From positions 1-64,000 of the forward strand of contig NZ_FNID01000014.1 of NCBI RefSeq assembly GCF_900103835.1: a DNA stretch of 64,000 nt, written 5' to 3'. Below, one piece after another: positions 9,342 to 53,447 of this stretch; within the stretch, counting starts at the first letter, position 1, and each line of letters begins with the position of its first letter. The notes beneath the pieces were generated by a model. It did not search any database, was not told the DNA's origin, and saw nothing but the letters and a program-made list of their open reading frames with translations. Made by a program: the position numbers and the translations under genes. This stretch comes from Acetanaerobacterium elongatum (GTDB taxonomy: Bacteria; Bacillota; Clostridia; Oscillospirales; Ruminococcaceae).

Positions 9342-9437
9342 CTGTCAATCCCCTTCCATGTCATTGATGACATTATAATGTATTGGGGCCCTATTGTAAA
9401 TTGTCTGCGTGTTTTCCCCGATTTTCTATCAATTTTA

Positions 9438-9464
9438 ACCCTTACCTTTACATCCTCATACAAT
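9438..9464 (+). promoter_or_regulatory. Possible SigK-type promoter of the first collagen-like gene
   Basis: CATACAAT at 9457-9464 fits the SigK -10 consensus CATANNNT, with AC at 9438-9439 seventeen bases before it. SigK drives late mother-cell genes, including the exosporium collagen BclA in Bacillus. The match is short and could be chance. Confidence 0.35.
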
Positions 9465-9511
9465 GGTATAGACAATATTTTGGTCAAGTTTATATAAAGG
9501 AGATATGGGGT

Positions 9512-10942
9512 ATGAGAAGATTTCCATATTCAGGCGGTATGCGGGTGGCTAACGCCCGGCAGCGGGCACCAGCCGTTATGAACTCTGCCGCCACCAAACA
9601 GGGGGCAAAACCCCGGAGTAACACAACTATCCCCGTAGCAGCTAATAATCTGCAAAATGCAGCTGAAGCTGCTGCCGTCATCGCTGCCCAAGCAGCAAAT
9701 GAAGTAACAGCGCTTACAGTTAACACGATTACCCCTGCTGTTGCAGATAATCTGCAGGATGTGGTTAAGGACACTGCTGCCACAGCCGCCGAAGCAATTC
9801 AAGAAATACTTTTACGTTACGATTCCGTTTCTGATCAACACGATTCTTCAGGTGAGAATCTGCCGGTTTTACCGGCTGAACCCCCGCCTGCAGCGCTGCC
9901 CACCGCACCGCCGTCAGACGACTTTGCCGATTGCGGCGGTAATAGATGCTTACTCTGCCCGGTACGCTTTGTATGTACCAAAAGCCCGTTCTGCTGCTTT
10001 TTAACCGGTCCAACAGGCCCCACCGGGCCGAGCGGTACTCCCGGGGCTGCAGGGGCGACCGGACCAACCGGGCCTGTGGGACCAGGTGGTACTCCGGGCA
10101 CACCAGGTTCCACGGGGCCTACCGGGCCTACTGGACCGCAGGGTACACCGGGCATTAACGGCCCAACCGGGCCTACCGGGCCGATTGGACCAACCGGGCC
10201 GGGTACTGGCGATACCGGCCCAGCGGGACCAACGGGGCCAACAGGGCCTCTTGGGCCTACTGGACCGACGGGGTCACTCGGTCCCACAGGGCCTACCGGG
10301 CCACAAGGCTTGCTGGGTGAAACAGGACCCACAGGGCCCTTCGGGCCTACCGGGCCTACCGGGCCTCAAGGCGAACAGGGTATAACAGGGCCTACCGGGC
10401 CTCTTGGACCTACTGGGCCGGGCACCGGAGACACCGGGCCGACGGGGCCGCTTGGGCCTACTGGGCCGACGGGGCCGCTCGGGCCCACAGGGCCCACAGG
10501 GCCTACCGGGCCACAAGGCGCAACCACCATGATTCGCGGCGTGGAGTATCAGGCCCAGACCCGTCAGGCTGAGGGGGTTGCCACCGGCAGCAATGTTTTG
10601 TTCGATACCATGGTAAACGGTCAGGATCTCACCATCACCTACAACAATGCTACCGGCGTTTTCACCATACCAAGAACCGGCAACTTTCTTGTGAACTGGC
10701 AGGTAGCCATCGACGGCTCCGATTTAGGCCCATCGGCGACCTTTACGTTAATTGAAACAGGTGCTGTAAGCATTAGCATCGCGGCCTCCACGCCGGTAAT
10801 ACTCGGGCAGGTTTCCGGCAGCGCGCTGGTTACCGTTTCAGGCTCTGCAACCCTGCGTCTGGCAAACAGCAGCGGGTATACCATCTTCCTTGCCGATATA
10901 CCGGTTCAGGCAAACATTACGATTATAGATGTAAGCATCTGA
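9512..10942 (+). CDS. Collagen-like surface protein with C-terminal BclA-type globular domain
   Basis: 476 residues from ATG 9512, with AAGGAGATAT upstream. Residues 1-150 are alanine/proline rich without a signal peptide. A cysteine-rich segment ([15 protein letters not shown], then FCCF) follows at about 145-163. Residues 166-337 are GXX triplets, mostly GPT/GPX, a collagen-like triple helix. The last 140 residues form a beta-rich domain like the BclA C-terminal trimerisation domain. Similar proteins form hair-like filaments on spores of Bacillus and Clostridioides. Threonine in the X-Y positions is the usual O-glycosylation site, and two glycosyltransferases follow downstream. The cysteine cluster may anchor or crosslink the base. 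Confidence 0.9.
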
Positions 10943-11062
10943 TGAATGCCAAATCGCAGCTTGTGTTACAAACATCCTCTAGCCGTATTGGTGATTAAAA
11001 GTAAAAGTTATTAATTGAAATTTGTTGAGCATAAAAGATAAGAGATTTTTAGGAGGATAAAA

Positions 11063-14029
11063 ATGAGCAACAACGCATTGCAGCTGGAACGCACCATGAC
11101 CGGTTCCGTTGCTGCGGGTGGAAACGTCGTGTTCAACACGCCCGTTTATACCGCCGGAAATATCGGATACAATCTGAATACAGGTGTCATCTCGCTGAAT
11201 GACCCTGGTCGTTATATTGTCAACTGGTGGGTTGCAATACAATCTACCCCAGGGGGAGCATCTGCCGTCTTCGCGCTCTCTTCCTCTCTGGGAGATCGTA
11301 TCAAAGGGAACTCTCCCAATAAAACAGATGAAGTCGTAGGTCTTGGCATCATCAATGTAACGGGCGATCCCGTAACGTTGTCACTGATTAACGCTACTAC
11401 TGTGAATGTGACTTATTCCAGCCAGGTTCCGGTTCAGGCCACCATTATGATTGTTGAGGATGACGAGGGCATTATCGGGCCGACGGGGCCTACCGGCCCG
11501 CAGGGCCTGCAGGGTAATGGTGATACAGGACCAACCGGGCCTCAGGGACCAACCGGGCCCGGAAACGGCGATACCGGACCAACCGGGCCTACCGGGCCTA
11601 TGGGTCCCACCGGTCCCGGCACCGGGGATACCGGGCCGACCGGCCCTACCGGCCCTGCCGGAATAGGTGATACCGGTCCTACCGGACCGATGGGGCCAAA
11701 TGGTACCGCAGGCGCAACCGGCCCTACCGGGCCACAGGGCCGGCAAGGCTCACAGGGTGCACAGGGGCCTCTTGGACCTGTAGGGCCTGTGGGTGATACC
11801 GGGCCTACGGGAGCTCAGGGCATACAGGGTGTTCAGGGCCCGACTGGGCCTACGGGGCCAATGGGCCCAACCGGGCCGGGAACCGGTGATACCGGACCGA
11901 TGGGCCCCACCGGGCCAACGGGGCCTCAGGGCAATCAAGGGCTTCAGGGGCCAACCGGGCCAACAGGCGCTCAGGGTAATCAGGGATTACAGGGACCAAC
12001 CGGACCAACGGGCGCTCAGGGTGATCAAGGATTACAGGGGCCCACCGGGCCTACCGGCGCTCAGGGCAATCAGGGATTACAGGGGCCCACCGGGCCAACG
12101 GGCGCTCAGGGCAATCAGGGATTACAGGGGCCCACCGGGCCTACCGGCGCTCAGGGTGATCAAGGATTACAGGGGCCAACCGGACCCACCGGCGCTCAGG
12201 GTAATCAAGGACTTCAAGGACCCACCGGTGATACTGGCCCAACAGGGCCTATGGGACCCACCGGGCCGGGAGTTGGTGACACTGGCCCAACCGGGGATAC
12301 CGGCCCAACCGGGCCTGGAGGGCCTACTGGTGCAATCGGGCCTACCGGCGACATTGGCCCAACCGGGCCTATCGGCCCTACCGGGCCAACCGGGCCAACC
12401 GGGCCAACCGGTTCCGTGGGGGCAAGCGGAGCTGTGGTAGGCGCCGCATACTACCTTGATAATACCGATTCGGGCTATATGGAGGATGTCAAGACGCTGC
12501 TGCGAGACCCTGATTTAAATCAACCGGAGGTTATCGTAAGCGTTAACAACACGCCGGAGGAGCCCTCCACTGTTCTGGGCAACTTTATCACGATAGCTGG
12601 CGACCCGGATATCTCAATCATTCCATCCGGCAGATGGCAGCTAAACCTTTGGGCAAGATCAGCCGCCGGATTAAGCTCTGTGATTACCTGTACCGTTTAC
12701 TACGAAAGAGCCGCTTCCATTTTCCCACTGCTGACCTTCACAACACCTGTATTATCCCAAACCTTCCCCGTAAGCCCATACACGTTGAATTTGGATGAAC
12801 CCAGCTTTACTATTCAGAAAACCGACCGGTTGTTTGTGCAATTCTCTGCATTAACGGAAAGCGGCTCCGATACGGTTTACCTGGCATATAACGGCACTCA
12901 GCGGTTTACCAACCTGGTTACACCCATCGCCGCCGGCCTGCCCGGACCAACAGGCCCAACCGGGCCGACTGGGCCTATGGGACCGACCGGACCTACGGGG
13001 CCGACCGGACCGGCGGGAACCGGCGATACCGGACCCACAGGGCCGACTGGGCCGATAGGGCCAACCGGAGCAAGCGGCAATATTGCTGGTGTGCTCTATT
13101 ATCTTGACGATTCGGCATCGGGCATTTCAGGTTACTACAATCTGCTGCGTGATCCGAACACTTCTATCACAGAACAAGAAGATTCCGCTACTTCTAATGG
13201 TACCGAAGTTCTCATCGAATCCTATATATCGGCGTCCGGAGACCCGGGAATAGCCGCTATTCCCGCCGGGGTGTGGAATCTAAATGTTTGGGCAAAAACC
13301 AGCGGCGGTAACAGTTCCTATCTTGTATGCAGGGTATTCACCAGAACCCAGGCCGGCGCTGAAACCGAGCTATTCAGATTACAGTCACCGTCATTAACCA
13401 CTTCTTATCCAGTAAATGCTTATTCGCTGCAGAGTGTACAGCCCAACAGAATCATTAACGCCACCGACAGACTTGTTTTCAAGTTCTATGCTTATGCAAC
13501 CGACAGCGCCAGGACTATTACCTTTACGCATAACGGCACTGCCAGATACACCTATATGGTCACCCCCATCTCGGTATCCCTTCGCGGATCAACCGGGCCG
13601 ACCGGGCCGACTGGGCCGACCGGGCCCGCTTCTGCTGCACTATACTACGGCTATACTACCAGCACAAATAATGCATTCCCGCCACTAACCACAGAGGTGG
13701 AGGCAATCAGGATAAATGTTTCAGCAAACAACCAACAGAAGATAAAGCTGGATTATTCCTTGGACTATACGATTAACTATTTAGATTATGCCAATTCCAC
13801 TTCGATACAGGTTAGACTGTATCGCGATACCCAGCTGCTTTGGTCGAATACCAACGCATTGACTGAATCAGGAATGGGAGACCAAAGATACACCTTAAGC
13901 GGGACATTTGTAGATTCTGCGCCTTCAAGCTCAACCTTCTCATACAACCTGCAAACCTACGTTTCTGTTGCCAATAATGTAAGCTCGATTATAATCACGA
14001 ATAGAAGTATTAATGCAATTGTTATCTAA
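11063..14029 (+). CDS. Large multi-domain collagen-like surface protein
   Basis: 988 residues; ATG 11063 has AGGAGG upstream. Order: an N-terminal globular domain (1-135) resembling the C-terminal domain of the preceding protein, a long collagen-like stretch (136-455), a globular domain (456-625), a short collagen segment (626-671), a second copy of that globular domain (672-838), a short collagen linker, and a C-terminal beta-rich domain (about 856-988). Within the long stretch a 15-residue unit [15 protein letters not shown] is repeated seven times. No signal peptide, so export may be by assembly on a spore surface. It follows the first collagen gene by 120 bases and ends in a strong terminator. 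Confidence 0.9.
11903..12217 (+). repeat. Seven tandem 45-bp units within the collagen-like gene
   Basis: Seven in-frame units encode GPTGPT, G(A/P)QG, (N/D)QGLQ. The units differ only at a few synonymous or N/D positions, which points to recent expansion by slippage or unequal crossing-over. Copy number is likely to vary between strains. Confidence 0.92.
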
Positions 14030-14147: not shown

Positions 14148-15260
14148 TTGAGCAGCTATAAAATCTGTGTATATGCCATCTGTAAAAACGAGGAGAAGTT
14201 TGTAGACCGCTGGATGGACGCGGTCAGCGAGGCCGATTTGGTAGTCGTTACCGATACCGGCTCTACTGACGGTACCGTGGAAAAGCTGCGGGCTAGAGGC
14301 GCGGTGGTTTATGAGGAAAAAATCAGCCCGTGGCGGTTTGATACGGCGCGTAATCTTGCCATGGATCACATCCCAGACGATATGGATATCTGTGTTTCCA
14401 ACGACTTGGATGAGGTTTTTGAAAAGGGGTGGCGGCAAAAGCTGGAAGACGCTTGGAAGCCCGAGCACACGCGTGCCCGCTACCTGTTCACCTACAGCTT
14501 TCATCTTGACGGCACACCGAATAAGCAGTTTGACATGGAAAAAATCCACCGCAGGCACGGCTTTCGATGGGTGCACCCGGTGCATGAGGTGCTGGAATAC
14601 AGCGGTACCGACCCGGATAATGTCGTAAGGGTGAATATGGTGCTCAACCACTACCCCGACTACGCCAAATCCCGCGGGCAGTATCTTCCTCTGCTTGAGC
14701 TCTCGGCCGCCGAAAACCCGCAGGATGACCGCACCGCCTTCTGGCTTGGGCGCGAGTATGTTTACAATCGGGAATACGATAAGGCAATCGAAGCCTTAAA
14801 ACGGCACCTTGATCTGCCCACCGCGTTGTGGAACGAGGAACGCAGCGCCTCCATGCGCTTTCTTGCAAGAAGCTATGAAGGCAAGGGCGACCTGCAAGAG
14901 GCAAAAAACTGGTTGTTCCGGGCGATTGCCGAGTGCCCCGCTGTTAGAGAACCCTATATTGATACCGCACGTCTTGGCTACCGGATGCGGGATTGGCCGC
15001 TGGTGTTTTTGATGACGGAAAGCGCGCTTTCGATTACACAAAAAAGCGGCAGTTATCTAACAGAAGAGTTGTGCTGGAGCTACCAACCTTACGATTTCGG
15101 TTCGATTGCCTGCTTCTGGCTTGGGCTGTACGATAAAGCCGCCCACTATGCAAAAATCGCATGCAAATATAGCCCATATGACGAACGATTAAAAAAGAAT
15201 TTAGAGTTGATTGAGTTAAAACAGAATGAAGGGAAGCCACAGCATGGAGAATCGTTATAA
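14148..15260 (+). CDS. Family 2 glycosyltransferase with C-terminal TPR-like region (first paralogue)
   Basis: 370 residues; the start is TTG 14148 with GGGTGA upstream, and the alignment with the next gene supports it. The GT-A domain is clear: VYAICKNEEKFVDRW, the nucleotide-binding VTDTGSTDGT, and the metal-binding SNDLDEVFE, followed by WVHPVHEVLEY. Residues 180-370 are helical repeats of TPR type. Such GT2-TPR enzymes transfer sugars to proteins or polysaccharides in the cytoplasm. Adjacency to the collagen-like genes suggests O-glycosylation of their threonines, as with SgtA next to bclA3 in Clostridioides difficile. The donor sugar cannot be read from the sequence. Confidence 0.88.
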   Translation: MSSYKICVYAICKNEEKFVDRWMDAVSEADLVVVTDTGSTDGTVEKLRARGAVVYEEKISPWRFDTARNLAMDHIPDDMDICVSNDLDEVFEKGWRQKLEDAWKPEHTRARYLFTYSFHLDGTPNKQFDMEKIHRRHGFRWVHPVHEVLEYSGTDPDNVVRVNMVLNHYPDYAKSRGQYLPLLELSAAENPQDDRTAFWLGREYVYNREYDKAIEALKRHLDLPTALWNEERSASMRFLARSYEGKGDLQEAKNWLFRAIAECPAVREPYIDTARLGYRMRDWPLVFLMTESALSITQKSGSYLTEELCWSYQPYDFGSIACFWLGLYDKAAHYAKIACKYSPYDERLKKNLELIELKQNEGKPQHGESL

Positions 15261-16338
15261 GGTTTGCGTATATGCCATCTGCAAAAATGAGGCGCAGTTT
15301 GTCGACCGCTGGATGGACTCGATGAACGAGGCCGACATGATAATCGTGACCGATACCGGTTCTACCGACGATACGGTCGAAAAGCTTCGCGCGCGGGGCG
15401 CCTTGGTATTTGAGGACGAGATTAAGCCTTGGCGGTTTGACGCAGCCCGCAATGCTTCACTCAGCCATGTGCCGGAGGATGCGGATATCTGTGTTTGCAC
15501 CGACCTTGATGAGGTACTAAATACAGGCTGGCGGCAGCATCTTGAGCAGGCGTGGACGGATACCGCCACCAACGGCAAATATCTGTATAACTGGAGCTTG
15601 AAGCCCGACGGAACACCGGATATCCAGTTTACCTATTTTAAGGTGCACAGCCGCAAGGATTACAAATGGGTATGCCCTGTTCACGAGTGCATCAGCTATA
15701 TCGGCAGCGGAGTACCGCAGGTAGTTTTTATCGAGGGTATGGTGCTCAACCACTATCCAGACCCTTCAAAATCGCGCGGATCGTACCTGCCGCTGTTGGA
15801 GCTTGCCGTACAAGAAGACCCGGAAAATGACCGCATGGCCTATTACCTTGGGCGCGAATATATGTACCATGAGCGCTGGCAGGAGTGCATCAACACCTTA
15901 ACCCAATATCTGAAGCTGAAAACCGCCACCTGGAAGGAGGAGCGCAGCGCAGCCATGCGCTGGGTGGCAAAAAGCTGCTGCGGCCTGAAACAATATAAGG
16001 AGGCCGTACGCTGGTACTTTAGGGCTATCGCTGAGGCACCTCATATGCGCGAACCATATGTGGAGCTTGCCCGAGCCGCTTACGAGCAGGCCGATTGGCC
16101 GATGGTATTTTGCATGACAGATCAGGCGCTGCAGATTAAGCAGAAATCCCTAAGCTATGTAACCATGGGCTATGCGTGGGATCAAACCCCCTACGACCTT
16201 GCGTCACTTGCGTGCTACTATCTTGGCATGTACAGCAAGGCACTTGAATATGCTAGAGAAGCTGCTCGCCTTGCTCCCGACGACACCCGCATTTTGAACA
16301 ACCTGCATTTAATTGAGAGTCGGGTTAATCAAGCCTGA
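15244..16338 (+). CDS. Family 2 glycosyltransferase with C-terminal TPR-like region (second paralogue)
   Basis: 364 residues. The chosen ATG at 15244 aligns with the start of the first paralogue and overlaps its end by 17 bases, so the pair is translationally coupled; an ATG six codons earlier is the alternative. The motifs are the same as in the first copy: VYAICKNEAQFVDRW, VTDTGSTDDT, CTDLDEVL and WVCPVHECISY, and the TPR-like C-terminus is also shared. The two are diverged tandem duplicates, which could mean two sugars of one glycan or two acceptor proteins. No terminator separates them. Confidence 0.88.
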   Translation: MENRYKVCVYAICKNEAQFVDRWMDSMNEADMIIVTDTGSTDDTVEKLRARGALVFEDEIKPWRFDAARNASLSHVPEDADICVCTDLDEVLNTGWRQHLEQAWTDTATNGKYLYNWSLKPDGTPDIQFTYFKVHSRKDYKWVCPVHECISYIGSGVPQVVFIEGMVLNHYPDPSKSRGSYLPLLELAVQEDPENDRMAYYLGREYMYHERWQECINTLTQYLKLKTATWKEERSAAMRWVAKSCCGLKQYKEAVRWYFRAIAEAPHMREPYVELARAAYEQADWPMVFCMTDQALQIKQKSLSYVTMGYAWDQTPYDLASLACYYLGMYSKALEYAREAARLAPDDTRILNNLHLIESRVNQA

Positions 16339-18474: not shown

Positions 18475-18568
18475 CTGCCGCTACGCGGCGCCGTACTTTT
18501 TTATTATTGGTTTTATGCCCTTTCTATCGGGCGTAAAGCCCAATAGAAAGGGCATGAATCTTTATATG
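18475..18568 (+). promoter_or_regulatory. Repeated leader element (copy 1): two hairpins ending at the parA-like start codon
   Basis: A small GCCGC/GCGGC hairpin is followed by an AT-rich linker and a long hairpin. In the latter, 18515-18527 pair with 18543-18555, and GGGC (18529-18532) pairs with GCCC (18538-18541) around GTAAA. The element ends at the ATG at 18566. A close copy precedes glgD on the minus strand (52087-52180); stem differences are mostly compensated. No other ribosome binding site is visible, only the AAAGGG in the 3' arm. Confidence 0.75.
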
Positions 18569-19348
18569 AAGAAGATTACCGTTATCACCAACCAAAAGGG
18601 TGGCGTTGGAAAAACGACCACCACCTGCTCTATGGCGGGCGGGTTGAGTATGCGCGGCTACAAGGTGTTAGCCATAGACCTTGATCCTCAGGGGAATCTG
18701 AGCTTCAGTGTGGGCGCCGAAACCGACGACAGCCCCACAGTTTATGAGGTAATGAAGGGCCAGGTACCCATACGCGATGCCATACAGCAAACCAAAACCT
18801 GCGATATCCTCCCCTCTAACATTCTTTTGAGTGGTGCGGAGCTGGAGTTTAATCGTCCTGGGCGCGAGCATATCCTGAAAGAGGCCATGGGGGATATAGC
18901 CGATGAATATGATTATGTCTTTATCGATACCCCACCGGCCTTAAGTATTCTTACCGTAAACGCCTACACCGTAGCCAACAGCATTATTATTCCGATGGTT
19001 CCCGAGATTCTGAGCCTTCAGGGAATTTCTCAGCTGAAGGAAACCATTGATACCGTACGAAAATACTATAACCACAGTCTTACCATAGAAGGCATTCTTC
19101 TTACTAAATACAATAACCGAACCAATCTTACAAGGGATGTTGAAGACCTTGCGAAGATTGTGGCCCGGCAGTTGAATACCAGCGTTTTAAATGCAAAGAT
19201 CAGGACAAGCGTTTCAGTGGCGGAAGCACCTGCCCACTGCGAGAGCGTACTGACCTTTGCTCCTCATGCTGCTGCCGCCAAGGATTATAAATCTCTGATT
19301 GATGAACTGCTGAAACGGGGTGAACCGAATGGGACGAAAGAGCAGTAA
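18566..19348 (+). CDS. ParA/MinD family ATPase (Soj-like)
   Basis: 260 residues from ATG 18566, where homology to ParA begins. The deviant Walker A KGGVGKTT is at 11-18, DLDPQGNLS at about 39, and the Walker B-like region VFIDTPPALS at about 115. The C-terminal region (LLTKYNNRTNLTRDV, SVAEAPAHCESVLTFAP) is Soj-like. The family positions DNA, protein clusters or chemotaxis arrays. No parB partner follows; instead the next gene, overlapping by 20 bases, encodes a ComFB-domain protein, so this ATPase probably positions something other than the chromosome. The frame is open upstream through the leader element, but that extension is not ParA-like. Confidence 0.9.
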   Translation: MKKITVITNQKGGVGKTTTTCSMAGGLSMRGYKVLAIDLDPQGNLSFSVGAETDDSPTVYEVMKGQVPIRDAIQQTKTCDILPSNILLSGAELEFNRPGREHILKEAMGDIADEYDYVFIDTPPALSILTVNAYTVANSIIIPMVPEILSLQGISQLKETIDTVRKYYNHSLTIEGILLTKYNNRTNLTRDVEDLAKIVARQLNTSVLNAKIRTSVSVAEAPAHCESVLTFAPHAAAAKDYKSLIDELLKRGEPNGTKEQ

Positions 19349-50961: not shown

Positions 50962-52089
50962 TTACACCACACTGGCCTTGGAGATAAACACGGGGTAGGA
51001 AAGGTAACCCATCAGCATTCGGTTGTCCTTTATAGTCACATCCTTATCGGTGATGCAGTAGTTCAGCACGCTCTTTTCGCCGATGCTGGTATCCTGCATG
51101 ATAATAGAGTTGGAAATCTTCGCACCTTTGCCAACGGTAACCCCGCGGAACAGCACCGAGTTTTCAACCTCTCCCTCAATCATACAGCCGTCGGCTATCA
51201 ACGAGTTGGTTACCTTGGAGTTGAGGCCATACTTGGCGGGCATATCGTCGCGCACCTTGGTATAGATGGGGCCGTTGTTGATGAACAGCTCGTCGCGTAC
51301 TTCTTTGTTCAGCATCATCATGTTGGCGTCAAAGTAGTCGCGCATGCTGTCAATCTTGGCGCAGAAGCCCTTGTATTCATACCCGTAGAGCCTCATGGCA
51401 GAGGCCTTCGCCTGCAGCACGTCCTTTTCCATGCTGAAAAGGTTGCGGCTCATGTTCTCGGTTACCAGCCGCTCCAGCAGCGCCTTTTCCATAATCATCA
51501 GATTAAGCGATACGTTGCACTCGCCCTGAATGCCGGGGTTAATCATTACATCGGTAATCCGCCCGCTTTCGTTGCAGCTGAATACCGTGGCATCGCGGCA
51601 GTTTTGGGCATTGAGCTCCTTTCTCTGGTAAACGGCGGTAATCTCGGCCTCTTTTTCGATATGCTCGTTAAGGATGGTTTTGATATTGTAATTGCAGATC
51701 GTATCACAGTCGGCCAGCACCACATAGCGCGCGTCGGAATGCTTAATAAAGCCCATAATGCCCGCCAGTGCCTCAATACGACCGCGGTAGATACCCGAAA
51801 CCCCTGCATTGCCGAACGGCGGCAGGATATACAGCCCCTCGCGCTTTCTGGCAAGGTCCCACTCACGGCCGGAGCCGAGGTGATCCATCAGCGACTGATA
51901 GTTGCTTTTGGTAATAACCCCCACCGACTGGATGTTGGAGTTTACAAGGGATGAAAGCGTAAAATCTATAAAGCGGTAGCGCCCGCCAAACGGCACGGAT
52001 GCCATCGTTCTTTTTTCGGTCAGCTCCCTGAGCATCTCATCGTGCATATTGGAGAAGATAATCCCCAGAATCTTTTTTCTATCTTGCAT
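50962..52089 (-). CDS. glgD: Glucose-1-phosphate adenylyltransferase, GlgD subunit
   Basis: 375 residues from ATG 52089, where similarity begins (MQDRKKILGIIFSN). The nucleotidyltransferase domain has MASVPFGGRYRFIDFTLSSL and a C-terminal left-handed beta-helix (GCMIEGEVENSVLFRGVTVG). The N-terminal nucleotide-binding GGxGxRL motif of GlgC is missing, so it is the regulatory or non-catalytic partner that Firmicutes pair with GlgC to make ADP-glucose. The copy-2 leader element lies directly before this start; the frame is open through it, but that extension is not family-like. Confidence 0.93.
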   Translation of the reverse strand: MQDRKKILGIIFSNMHDEMLRELTEKRTMASVPFGGRYRFIDFTLSSLVNSNIQSVGVITKSNYQSLMDHLGSGREWDLARKREGLYILPPFGNAGVSGIYRGRIEALAGIMGFIKHSDARYVVLADCDTICNYNIKTILNEHIEKEAEITAVYQRKELNAQNCRDATVFSCNESGRITDVMINPGIQGECNVSLNLMIMEKALLERLVTENMSRNLFSMEKDVLQAKASAMRLYGYEYKGFCAKIDSMRDYFDANMMMLNKEVRDELFINNGPIYTKVRDDMPAKYGLNSKVTNSLIADGCMIEGEVENSVLFRGVTVGKGAKISNSIIMQDTSIGEKSVLNYCITDKDVTIKDNRMLMGYLSYPVFISKASVV

Positions 52090-52180
52090 AGTAAGATCCA
52101 TGCCCTTTCTTTTAGGCTTTATGCCCAAAAGAAAGGGCATAAAACCGATTATAAAAAGTGTCGATGCCGCTTTGCGGCAG
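52087..52180 (-). promoter_or_regulatory. Repeated leader element (copy 2), before glgD
   Basis: Minus-strand copy of the element before the parA-like gene. It has a TGCCGC/GCGGCA hairpin (52165-52170 with 52174-52179), an AT-rich linker, and a long hairpin (52100-52140) whose arms pair over 14 bases, then GGGC with GCCT around ATAAA. It ends at the glgD ATG. About eight differences by eye in the last 60 bases compared with copy 1; several stem differences are compensated. Confidence 0.75.
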
Positions 52181-52235
52181 AAGCGGTTATACTGCGAAAG
52201 ACATTTTTCAACGCTTAAAAGAATGTTCTTTCAAG

Positions 52236-53447
52236 CTATTCCTCCTGCCGGTCGGCGTCGATCATCTGCTTGGGTTTCACCACACTGCCCGCTTTGAGCT
52301 TTGCCCCGGCGCCGATAACGGCAATGCCCCAGTCGTCCTTGTTTTCCACCTGCTCGGGGCGCATACCCACCACGCAGTTTTCGCCGATTATAACATCCTC
52401 GGCCACAATGGCATACTGCACCACCGCGCCGCTTTTAATAACCGTACCGGGCATGATGATACTGTCGCGCACCACAGCGCCCTTTTCAATAGTAACCCCG
52501 GCAAACAGCACCGAGAAATCCACCGTACCGAAGATATTGCAGCCCTCGGCAATCATAGCGTTCTGAACGTTAGCCTCCTCGCCTACATAGTGCGGCGGCA
52601 TAACGGGGTTGCGCGCATAGATCTTCCACGAAGGGTCGTGCAGCTCAAGCGGCACCTTGGGGTCGAGCAGGTCCATGTTGGCCTCCCACAGGCTGTCGAT
52701 GGTGCCTACGTCCTTCCAGTAGCCCTCAAACGGGTAGGCCACAAGCTTCTGCCCGTCAGCAAGCATGGCGGGGATAATGTCCTTGCCGAAGTCTTTGGAG
52801 GCGTTCTGGTCGCGCTCGTTCTCCTCCAGATACTTTTTCAGCTTCTTCCACGAGAAGATGTATACACCCATCGAGGCAAGGTTGCTCTTGGGCTTTTGGG
52901 GTTTCTCTGCAAATTCAAAGATCCTGCTGTCCTCATCCGCTGCAATAATACCGAAGCGGGAGGCCTCCTCCCACGGCACGGTGATTACCGCAATGGTGCA
53001 GTCGGCGTTCTTTGCCTTATGAAAATCGAGCATCTTCTCGTAGTTCATCTTATAGATATGGTCGCCGGAAAGCACCGCAATGTACTCGGGGTCGTAGCCC
53101 TCGATGAAATGGATGTTCTGGTAGATGGCATTGGCCGTACCGCGGTACCAGTCGGAGCCGGTAGCCTTCTGGTAGGGGGAAAGCACATGTACACCGCCGT
53201 GGCTGCGGTCTAAATCCCACGGCTGGCCGTTTCCGATGTATTCGTTAAGCTCCAGCGGCTGGTACTGAGTGAGGATGCCGACGGTGTCTATGCCGGAGTT
53301 CACACAGTTGGAAAGTGTAAAGTCGATGATGCGATACTTTCCGCCGTAGGGTACCGCGGGCTTTGCAAGGTTTTTTGTGAGCACATGCAGTCTGCTGCCC
53401 TGCCCTCCGGCAAGAAGCATTGCAATCCATTCCTTTTTGCGAATCAT
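52236..53447 (-). CDS. glgC: Glucose-1-phosphate adenylyltransferase, catalytic subunit
   Basis: 403 residues. It makes ADP-glucose from glucose-1-phosphate and ATP, the first committed step of glycogen synthesis. Motifs: [20 protein letters not shown] at the N-terminus, [32 protein letters not shown]-like [13 protein letters not shown], the metal aspartate in [13 protein letters not shown], and a C-terminal beta-helix. The pyrophosphorylase motif, absent in GlgD, is intact. It is the second gene of the operon, 65 bases after glgB. Confidence 0.95.

Follow-up and report, generated by a model that had tools for sequence, protein, structure and literature searches.

The window analysed here, a stretch of 64,000 nucleotides at the start of contig NZ_FNID01000014.1 of Acetanaerobacterium elongatum, contains two closely similar palindromic sequences, one before glgD and the other before a gene that, following the preliminary description of this DNA, we take to be ParA-like. 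This raises the question whether the repeat is a regulatory leader or a mobile palindrome, the two alternatives named in the preliminary description. Both are partly right, the sequence being, on our reading, a mobile palindrome that becomes a structured leader of the mRNA, with a possible regulatory role. More specifically, we conclude with a probability of roughly 0.85 that the repeated leader is a non-autonomous derivative, similar to a miniature inverted-repeat transposable element (MITE), of IS110-type insertion sequences (IS), whose insertion is guided by a bridge RNA.

The two copies were found where they had been described, before the ATG of the ParA-like gene (18566, + strand) and the ATG of glgD (52089, - strand), and both extend to the start codon. 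In a DNA search they were 81% identical across 98-99 nt (E=1.6e-19), and each has a small hairpin of GCCGC type, an AT linker and the palindrome ATGCCCTTTCT..AGAAAGGGCAT. The 11-mer ATGCCCTTTCT, with at most one mismatch, occurs 8 times in the window versus 1.34 expected, and the folds of copies 1 and 2 have z values of -7.5 and -6.1, respectively, relative to shuffled sequences. The repeat is real, but the length of about 95 nt originally assigned to it is too short: the whole element is about 145-170 nt long (Table 1). Besides the greater length, features that had not been described include a possible three-way junction at the 5' side, a Shine-Dalgarno sequence (SD) in the 3' arm of the long hairpin, a second, mutually exclusive pairing and many further copies in the genome. 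From 5' to 3' the element consists of a hairpin starting with AG.TTGAAA (H1), a module termed X, a T-rich linker and the SD-holding hairpin Y. The SD, AGAAAGG, is invariant in an alignment of the copies (alignment A3).

A DNA search of the A. elongatum genome detected eight good copies. The covariance model R1 found the same eight at E <= 1.4e-11, and its weaker matches defined a second subfamily (type 2, as opposed to type 1, to which both window copies belong). Model R2, representing type 2, gave 55 matches at E <= 5, reverse-strand echoes and weak matches included. Leaving aside the weaker R2 matches (E above 0.1, and a few others), 42 loci were read, and in 33 of them the SD-bearing end stands directly before the start of an open reading frame (ORF), in the orientation of the gene, so that the genome has at least 33 copies of this kind. 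The SD is inside the hairpin in nearly all of these 33 copies; in three (L071, L236 and L237) the 5' arm of the hairpin has been lost or changed. Automatic scoring of the distance between the first base of the SD motif and the start codon, possible in 29 copies, gave 17-20 nt in 24 of them and 13-16 nt in the other five; the automatic pattern failed for L003, L004, L006 and L038, which were read by eye. In seven of the 42 loci module X is present and the usual SD end is missing (L066, L073, L076, L079, L083, L234 and L238), L233 is doubtful, and L239 was rejected by eye as a chance match.

Each copy precedes a different gene, and the observation that the genes served are unrelated, made originally on two copies, extends to the further copies. 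With Pfam searches run on transposases only and other names taken from the printed sequences, the genes presumably encode, besides the ParA-like protein and GlgD, V-type ATPase subunit A, GatC, a response regulator, LeuB, biotin carboxylase, a ClpC-like protein, ABC proteins and others. It had been proposed that a genome-wide covariance-model search revealing random orientations and distances to downstream genes would mark the element as a dispersed repeat rather than a leader. The 33 copies are all oriented with the gene, at a near-fixed distance from the start codon; the orientation is fixed, so by this test the element counts as a leader.

Relatives were sought first in the 396 genomes of the same family. 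R1 matched this genome and one other (G036), in which the match, a plain terminator-like hairpin, was rejected by eye as due to chance. R2 matched 13 of the 396 genomes, A. elongatum included; some genera have module X by itself or in tandem, others hairpin Y before start codons, and some matches in the 12 other genomes are weak (e.g. L091, L093, L095) and fit neither X nor Y clearly. The exact pattern of the Y core was present in 5 of the 396 genomes, again including A. elongatum, and in at least 119 stretches of the GTDB collection, of which 80 were read. Twenty-eight of these (13 from Cupriavidus, 15 others) were judged by eye to be chance matches and dropped before BLAST comparison. Among the remaining loci a lenient filter for start codons retained at least 60 oriented matches, a number that includes antisense echoes from palindromic copies; copy numbers outside A. 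elongatum are lower bounds throughout. The hosts of hairpin Y, among the matches listed, include Oscillospiraceae, Pelotomaculum, and metagenome-assembled genomes (MAGs) labelled Synergistaceae, Tannerella and Family XIII. Foreign mini-elements (in UBA1734, UBA1741 and others) start with the same (A)AG.TTGAAA end.

Several GTDB loci displayed homology over the whole 1 kb compared upstream. These long elements span about 1.55 kb and carry a transposase gene that reads away from the leader and starts about 210-290 nt from it; both transposases tested (L150 and L139) match PF01548 and PF02371. The idea of a group I or group II intron end, which had come from contig ends hinting at a longer repeat, was dropped once the IS110 transposase had been read. 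Full-length (about 1.55 kb), internally deleted (L149, L175) and short forms have the left end (LE) in common, and L163 amounts nearly to a right end (RE) joined to an LE. The type-2 LE matches the LE of the IS110 elements and the RE, AG.TTGAAA, matches as well, so that both ends are shared; the type-1 LE diverges more, and type 1 is tied in through module X and the RE. Judged by these alignments, the copies in A. elongatum have termini and insertion position in common with the IS110 relatives. The window element, being non-coding, has no transposase inside, as an autonomous IS110 element would. H1 is a hairpin within the 5' end and does not repeat the 3' end. Neither a target duplication nor terminal inverted repeats that would connect the ends were noticed in the alignments, which included no dedicated test for either. 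To our knowledge a target-site duplication is not expected for IS110. In PMC11187229, an IS110-family mini-IS with a 29 bp LE and a 16 bp RE is described as having moved experimentally, as is cargo placed between the ends of an IS1111-type element, with transposase and non-coding region supplied in trans.

The position of insertion is best illustrated by glgD. In relatives, glgD follows closely after glgC and has its SD directly before the ATG (clear in L243, L249, L250 and L251 of 27 relatives viewed, less clear in others). In A. elongatum the element separates AGGAGG (52246-52241) from the ATG of glgD (52089). The same position was examined in all copies with a recognisable 5' end by scoring any of seven SD-like 4-mers within 18 nt upstream. 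Such a 4-mer was present in 21 of 25 A. elongatum copies versus 30 of 100 control windows (Fisher p 1.1e-6), in 16 of 18 foreign mini-elements versus 19 of 72 controls (p 1.7e-6) and in 12 of 15 IS110 elements, two of them deletion derivatives, versus 22 of 60 controls (p 0.003). Duplex energies with the anti-SD tail gave Wilcoxon p values of 8.9e-8, 3.8e-6 and 6.1e-5 for the three groups, respectively. Mini-elements and IS110 relatives thus occupy the same target position, between SD and ATG, and the gene-side end of the autonomous relatives brings a replacement SD (GAAAGG), spaced from the ATG as a functional SD would be. Upstream of copy 1 neither a displaced SD nor the 5' (RE) end was recognised.

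A guide RNA is predicted on the strand opposite the LE. In the consensus fold, derived from an alignment of 11 elements, one closing stem encloses two strands with a small cap hairpin between them. The first predicted guide strand is GUGGAGGUGAG or a close variant and is SD-like (GGAGGUG); the second is (A/U)AU-NNN-UAUG or, in distant elements, (A/U)AU-NNN-AAUC. The NNN of the guide was compared by script with the NNN between the host start codon (CAT on the guide strand) and the element. Of the 18 elements chosen first, 15 had identical triplets (mean of 200,000 permutations 1.7, maximum 10), and counted by single bases the agreement was 50 of 54 (mean 23.7, maximum 40). A scan of all loci added L212 and L220, both exact, giving 17 exact matches in 20 distinct elements (permutation mean 1.75, maximum 9 in 100,000). 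These 20 are IS110 relatives and one deletion derivative, the window element not being among them; of the 13 order-level transposase matches, L271 duplicates the L150 element, while no guide comparison was obtained from L273, L276 and L282. Copy-specific agreement of guide and target is the behaviour described for bridge RNA and seekRNA in PMC11208160 and PMC11187229. Since the guide NNN equals the start-codon flank of the individual copy in most elements, these results argue for placement by RNA-guided targeting and not for survival of random insertions. The fixed placement that speaks for a leader is accounted for by targeted insertion, because the same ends sit on IS110 elements with matching guides and with a displaced SD on the far side.

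Several observations weigh against descent from IS110 elements. Four of the 25 A. elongatum copies have no SD-like 4-mer upstream; no empty site of the same species was compared, and there was no genome of the same genus among the relatives listed. Type-1 copies, including both in the window, end their LE in GCATGGATCTTA and not in AATGGTCATA, and copy 1 has lost its 5' end. PF02371 was not found in the 97.2%-complete A. elongatum genome (PF01548 was not searched), and we know of no present mobiliser. Module X was not seen in the IS110 elements read and occurs alone or in tandem in other genera; homology between it and the non-coding end of the IS was not noticed, in comparisons that included no dedicated search. 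Three of the 20 guides are not exact (L131 and L175 differ in one base each, L279 in two), and in several elements the SD-like strand matches the individual upstream SD loosely. The predicted guide fold must be regarded as provisional, since in the consensus a 3-bp hairpin is also placed across the SD-like strand, and the closing stem formed in one of three single-sequence folds (L169, but not L139 and L150).

Taking into account both sides, we envisage that an IS110 transposase and bridge RNA acting in trans inserted the mini-elements and that the mobilising transposase has since been lost or was not assembled. In the predicted guide the AUNNNUAUG strand would set the start-codon flank and the GGAGGUG strand would direct the complex to SDs, while the SD carried by the element would keep the host gene translatable. 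A bolder and distinctly tentative proposal is that a bridge-RNA transposon lineage adopted the SD as part of its guide and so became able to insert before almost any gene, bringing a replacement SD and a sequester/anti-sequester hairpin, and that its mini-elements outlived the transposase and now form a shared translational control over some 33 genes.

Both that proposal and the strongest rival explanation involve the folding of the element. In module X a three-way junction is possible, with P1 formed by AAAAATTGC/GCAATTTTT or AAAAATGCC/GGCATTTTT, a P2, a P3 of TGCGGC/GCCGCA, and near-constant residues TGTC, TCC and TC. Hairpin Y has two alternative pairings: its 5' arm can bind the SD strand, which gives state A, or else the middle strand, which gives state B and would leave the SD free. 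State A is paired in 94.2% of cells in type 2, with three both-sided changes, a number reached by 1 of 500 shuffles; in type 1 it is paired in 88.0% of cells, with a covariation score reached by 3 of 500 shuffles and a number of both-sided pairs reached by 34 of 500. State B is paired in 93.3% (type 2) and 94.8% (type 1) of cells, far above slid controls, and its both-sided changes were reached by 180 and 19 of 500 shuffles, respectively. State B is therefore possible nearly everywhere with weak covariation, and the closed form, state A, is the better supported. The 21 single-sequence folds that contain Y were read as 16 in state A and five in state B (L008, L011, L036, L038 and L042); in L042 the SD released in this way forms pairs with the linker instead. 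Co-transcriptional folding, in which state B would precede state A, might set the openness of the SD. Selection on structure, suggested earlier for the long stem, is thus supported by covariation for the closed SD hairpin; the compensated difference adduced for it, TAT/ATA versus TTT/AAA, amounts to a single true change on both sides of the stem (pair 56/74 in alignment A3). Palindromes at the ends of mobile elements may also persist through mutation bias.

An unlikely alternative is that the element is a cis-regulatory RNA responding in trans, riboswitch-like or protein-bound, in which recognition of a ligand or protein by the three-way junction switches the SD hairpin between A and B. The conserved junction residues, the three-way fold in several copies, the two exclusive pairings available in most cells and the occurrence of both states among the single-sequence folds are what a regulon of this kind would display. 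It fits poorly with the unrelated genes served, with the fact that other genomes have module X in tandem and away from start codons, and with a state-B covariation that is not above shuffles in type 2 and modest in type 1; moreover, targeted insertion already accounts for the placement. No match at gathering score to Rfam 15 was obtained in the window or in 16 related loci, consistent with the earlier remark that no named family fits, and at a relaxed E-value there were seven sub-threshold matches in five loci (E up to 5); a riboswitch or other known RNA family was rejected on these grounds. An H-type pseudoknot between the state-B loop and the SD was dismissed by reasoning alone, the loops being too short. 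TATAAT, a candidate internal promoter, is present in the linker of L005, L006 and L007 and is not conserved in type 2.

The many scattered palindromic copies, the seven loci without the usual SD end and at least one locus (L079) that is not before a start codon as printed would also suit an ordinary dispersed repeat, similar to repetitive extragenic palindromic (REP) or BOX sequences, that lands anywhere and survives or is detected at start codons only. We consider this very improbable because 33 of 42 loci have one orientation to the gene and nearly the same spacing, an SD is left on the far side, and guide and target match copy by copy. Convergent local inverted duplications of a common SD context in each lineage, with no mobility, are barely credible: some A. 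elongatum genes (L015, L018, L019) do have AGAAAGGGCATG-like SD contexts without a hairpin, though possibly as relics, but the homology of about 150 nt reaches H1 and module X with both ends shared, and the ends recur on full IS110 elements.

Some individual loci deserve mention. In A. elongatum, the type-1 copy before the response-regulator gene (L007, 1425-1475) directly follows AAGAAAGGAATGGTCAT, which resembles a type-2 LE with SD; it is probably a nested insertion that used the SD of the earlier element as target. Another genus has an SD-hairpin family of its own (e.g. GTTTTGTCC..GGACAAAAC..GGAAAGGATGGTCATA) before several genes (L090, L099, L104, L108, and L247 in G021 before glgD), and the copy at glgD is probably an independent insertion at the same gene. 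Three LE ends in WRIZ01 (L166, L168, L188), 99-100% identical and each before a different gene, lie no more than about 100 nt from where the retrieved contig stretch ends; a young element present in many copies would be expected to interrupt the assembly in this way. In mini-elements of the JAITSR MAG (L116, L173, L191) the hairpin loop, ACCATTCC or ACCATTTC, is antisense to GGAATGGT on the SD side, and a loop-SD contact is possible from the complementarity. Module X stands alone, partly in tandem arrays, in L086, L098, L107, L087, L100, L084 and L101 (genomes G115, G295 and G004); promoter-like sequence lies between the tandem copies, which as read have no tie to start codons.

Features of the two copies are collected in Table 1. 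Elsewhere in the window there are two long ORFs with collagen-like Gly-X-Y repeats (9383-14029), a tandem pair of 370-aa ORFs with common stretches at 71-73% DNA identity (14148-16338), and spacer-free perfect palindromes of 46 bp (1025-1070) and 36 bp (178-213).

Table 1. Coordinates of the two element copies and the genes behind them (window numbering).
Feature	Position	Strand	Remarks
Copy 1, small hairpin TGCCGC-TAC-GCGGCG	18476..18490	+	Sequence, alignment A3; equals P3 of the three-way junction in other copies
Copy 1, long hairpin, state A (sequesters SD)	18515..18555	+	Corresponds to the LE of IS110-type elements
Copy 1, state B pairing (would free SD)	18509..18540	+	GGTTTTATGCCC (18509-18520) with GGGCGTAAAGCC (18529-18540)
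Copy 1, element-borne SD AGAAAGG	18545..18551	+	Sequence
Presumed ParA-like gene	18566..19348	+	Start codon 18566-18568
Copy 2, displaced original SD AGGAGG of glgD	52241..52246	-	At the glgC end, directly upstream of the element
Copy 2, whole element	52092..52237	-	5' (RE-like) end AGCTTGAAAG... to 3' (LE-like) end ...GCATGGATCTTA; limits approximate within a few bases
Copy 2, hairpin H1 CTTGAAAGAACATTCTTTTAAG, RE-like terminus	52214..52235	-	Fold, alignment of copies
Copy 2, module X, three-way junction	52153..52208	-	P1 AAAAATGTC / GACACTTTTT; P3 52165-52179; fold and alignment of copies
Copy 2, long hairpin, state A	52100..52140	-	Sequence, fold, alignment
Copy 2, state B pairing	52115..52146	-	GGTTTTATGCCC (52146-52135) with GGGCATAAAGCC (52126-52115)
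Copy 2, element-borne SD AGAAAGG	52104..52110	-	Sequence
glgD	50962..52089	-	Start codon 52089-52087

Programmable DNA insertion derives from natural bridge-RNA systems, the IS110 elements. In the case studied here the guide appears to read a near-universal feature of bacterial genes, the SD together with the start codon, and the element appears to soften the damage by supplying a new SD. If true, this would represent a distinct form of coexistence between transposon and host and a source of ready-made, structure-controlled translation leaders across a genome. Since public genomes allow guide and target to be compared for each copy individually, the idea is directly testable. IS110 elements, guide RNAs and MITEs are already known; as to the gap between SD and start codon, a search of the open-access PMC literature brought up no IS110-type element or derivative that targets it.

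The element resembles the MITEs of bacterial IS in being a short, non-coding, multi-copy, hairpin-forming relative of autonomous IS, and differs from them in that its placement is specific to translation starts and that neither end-linking terminal inverted repeats nor a target duplication were noticed. BOX copies upstream of genes are structured. Like pneumococcal BOX and RUP (PMC3049150), the element is a short interspersed repeat of a Gram-positive genome, the likeness being one of general description. The closest comparison is with the IS110 bridge RNA and seekRNA elements, as presented in PMC11208160 and PMC11187229: the relatives have a DEDD transposase (PF01548 and PF02371), a long non-coding end upstream of it, a predicted guide RNA and a guide-target match. 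The window element departs from these in having no transposase and no recognised guide RNA. The targets given there are REP elements for IS621 and varied target logos for other IS; unlike the IS110 elements so described, those studied here have the gap between SD and start codon as their target and carry a replacement SD at the gene-side end.
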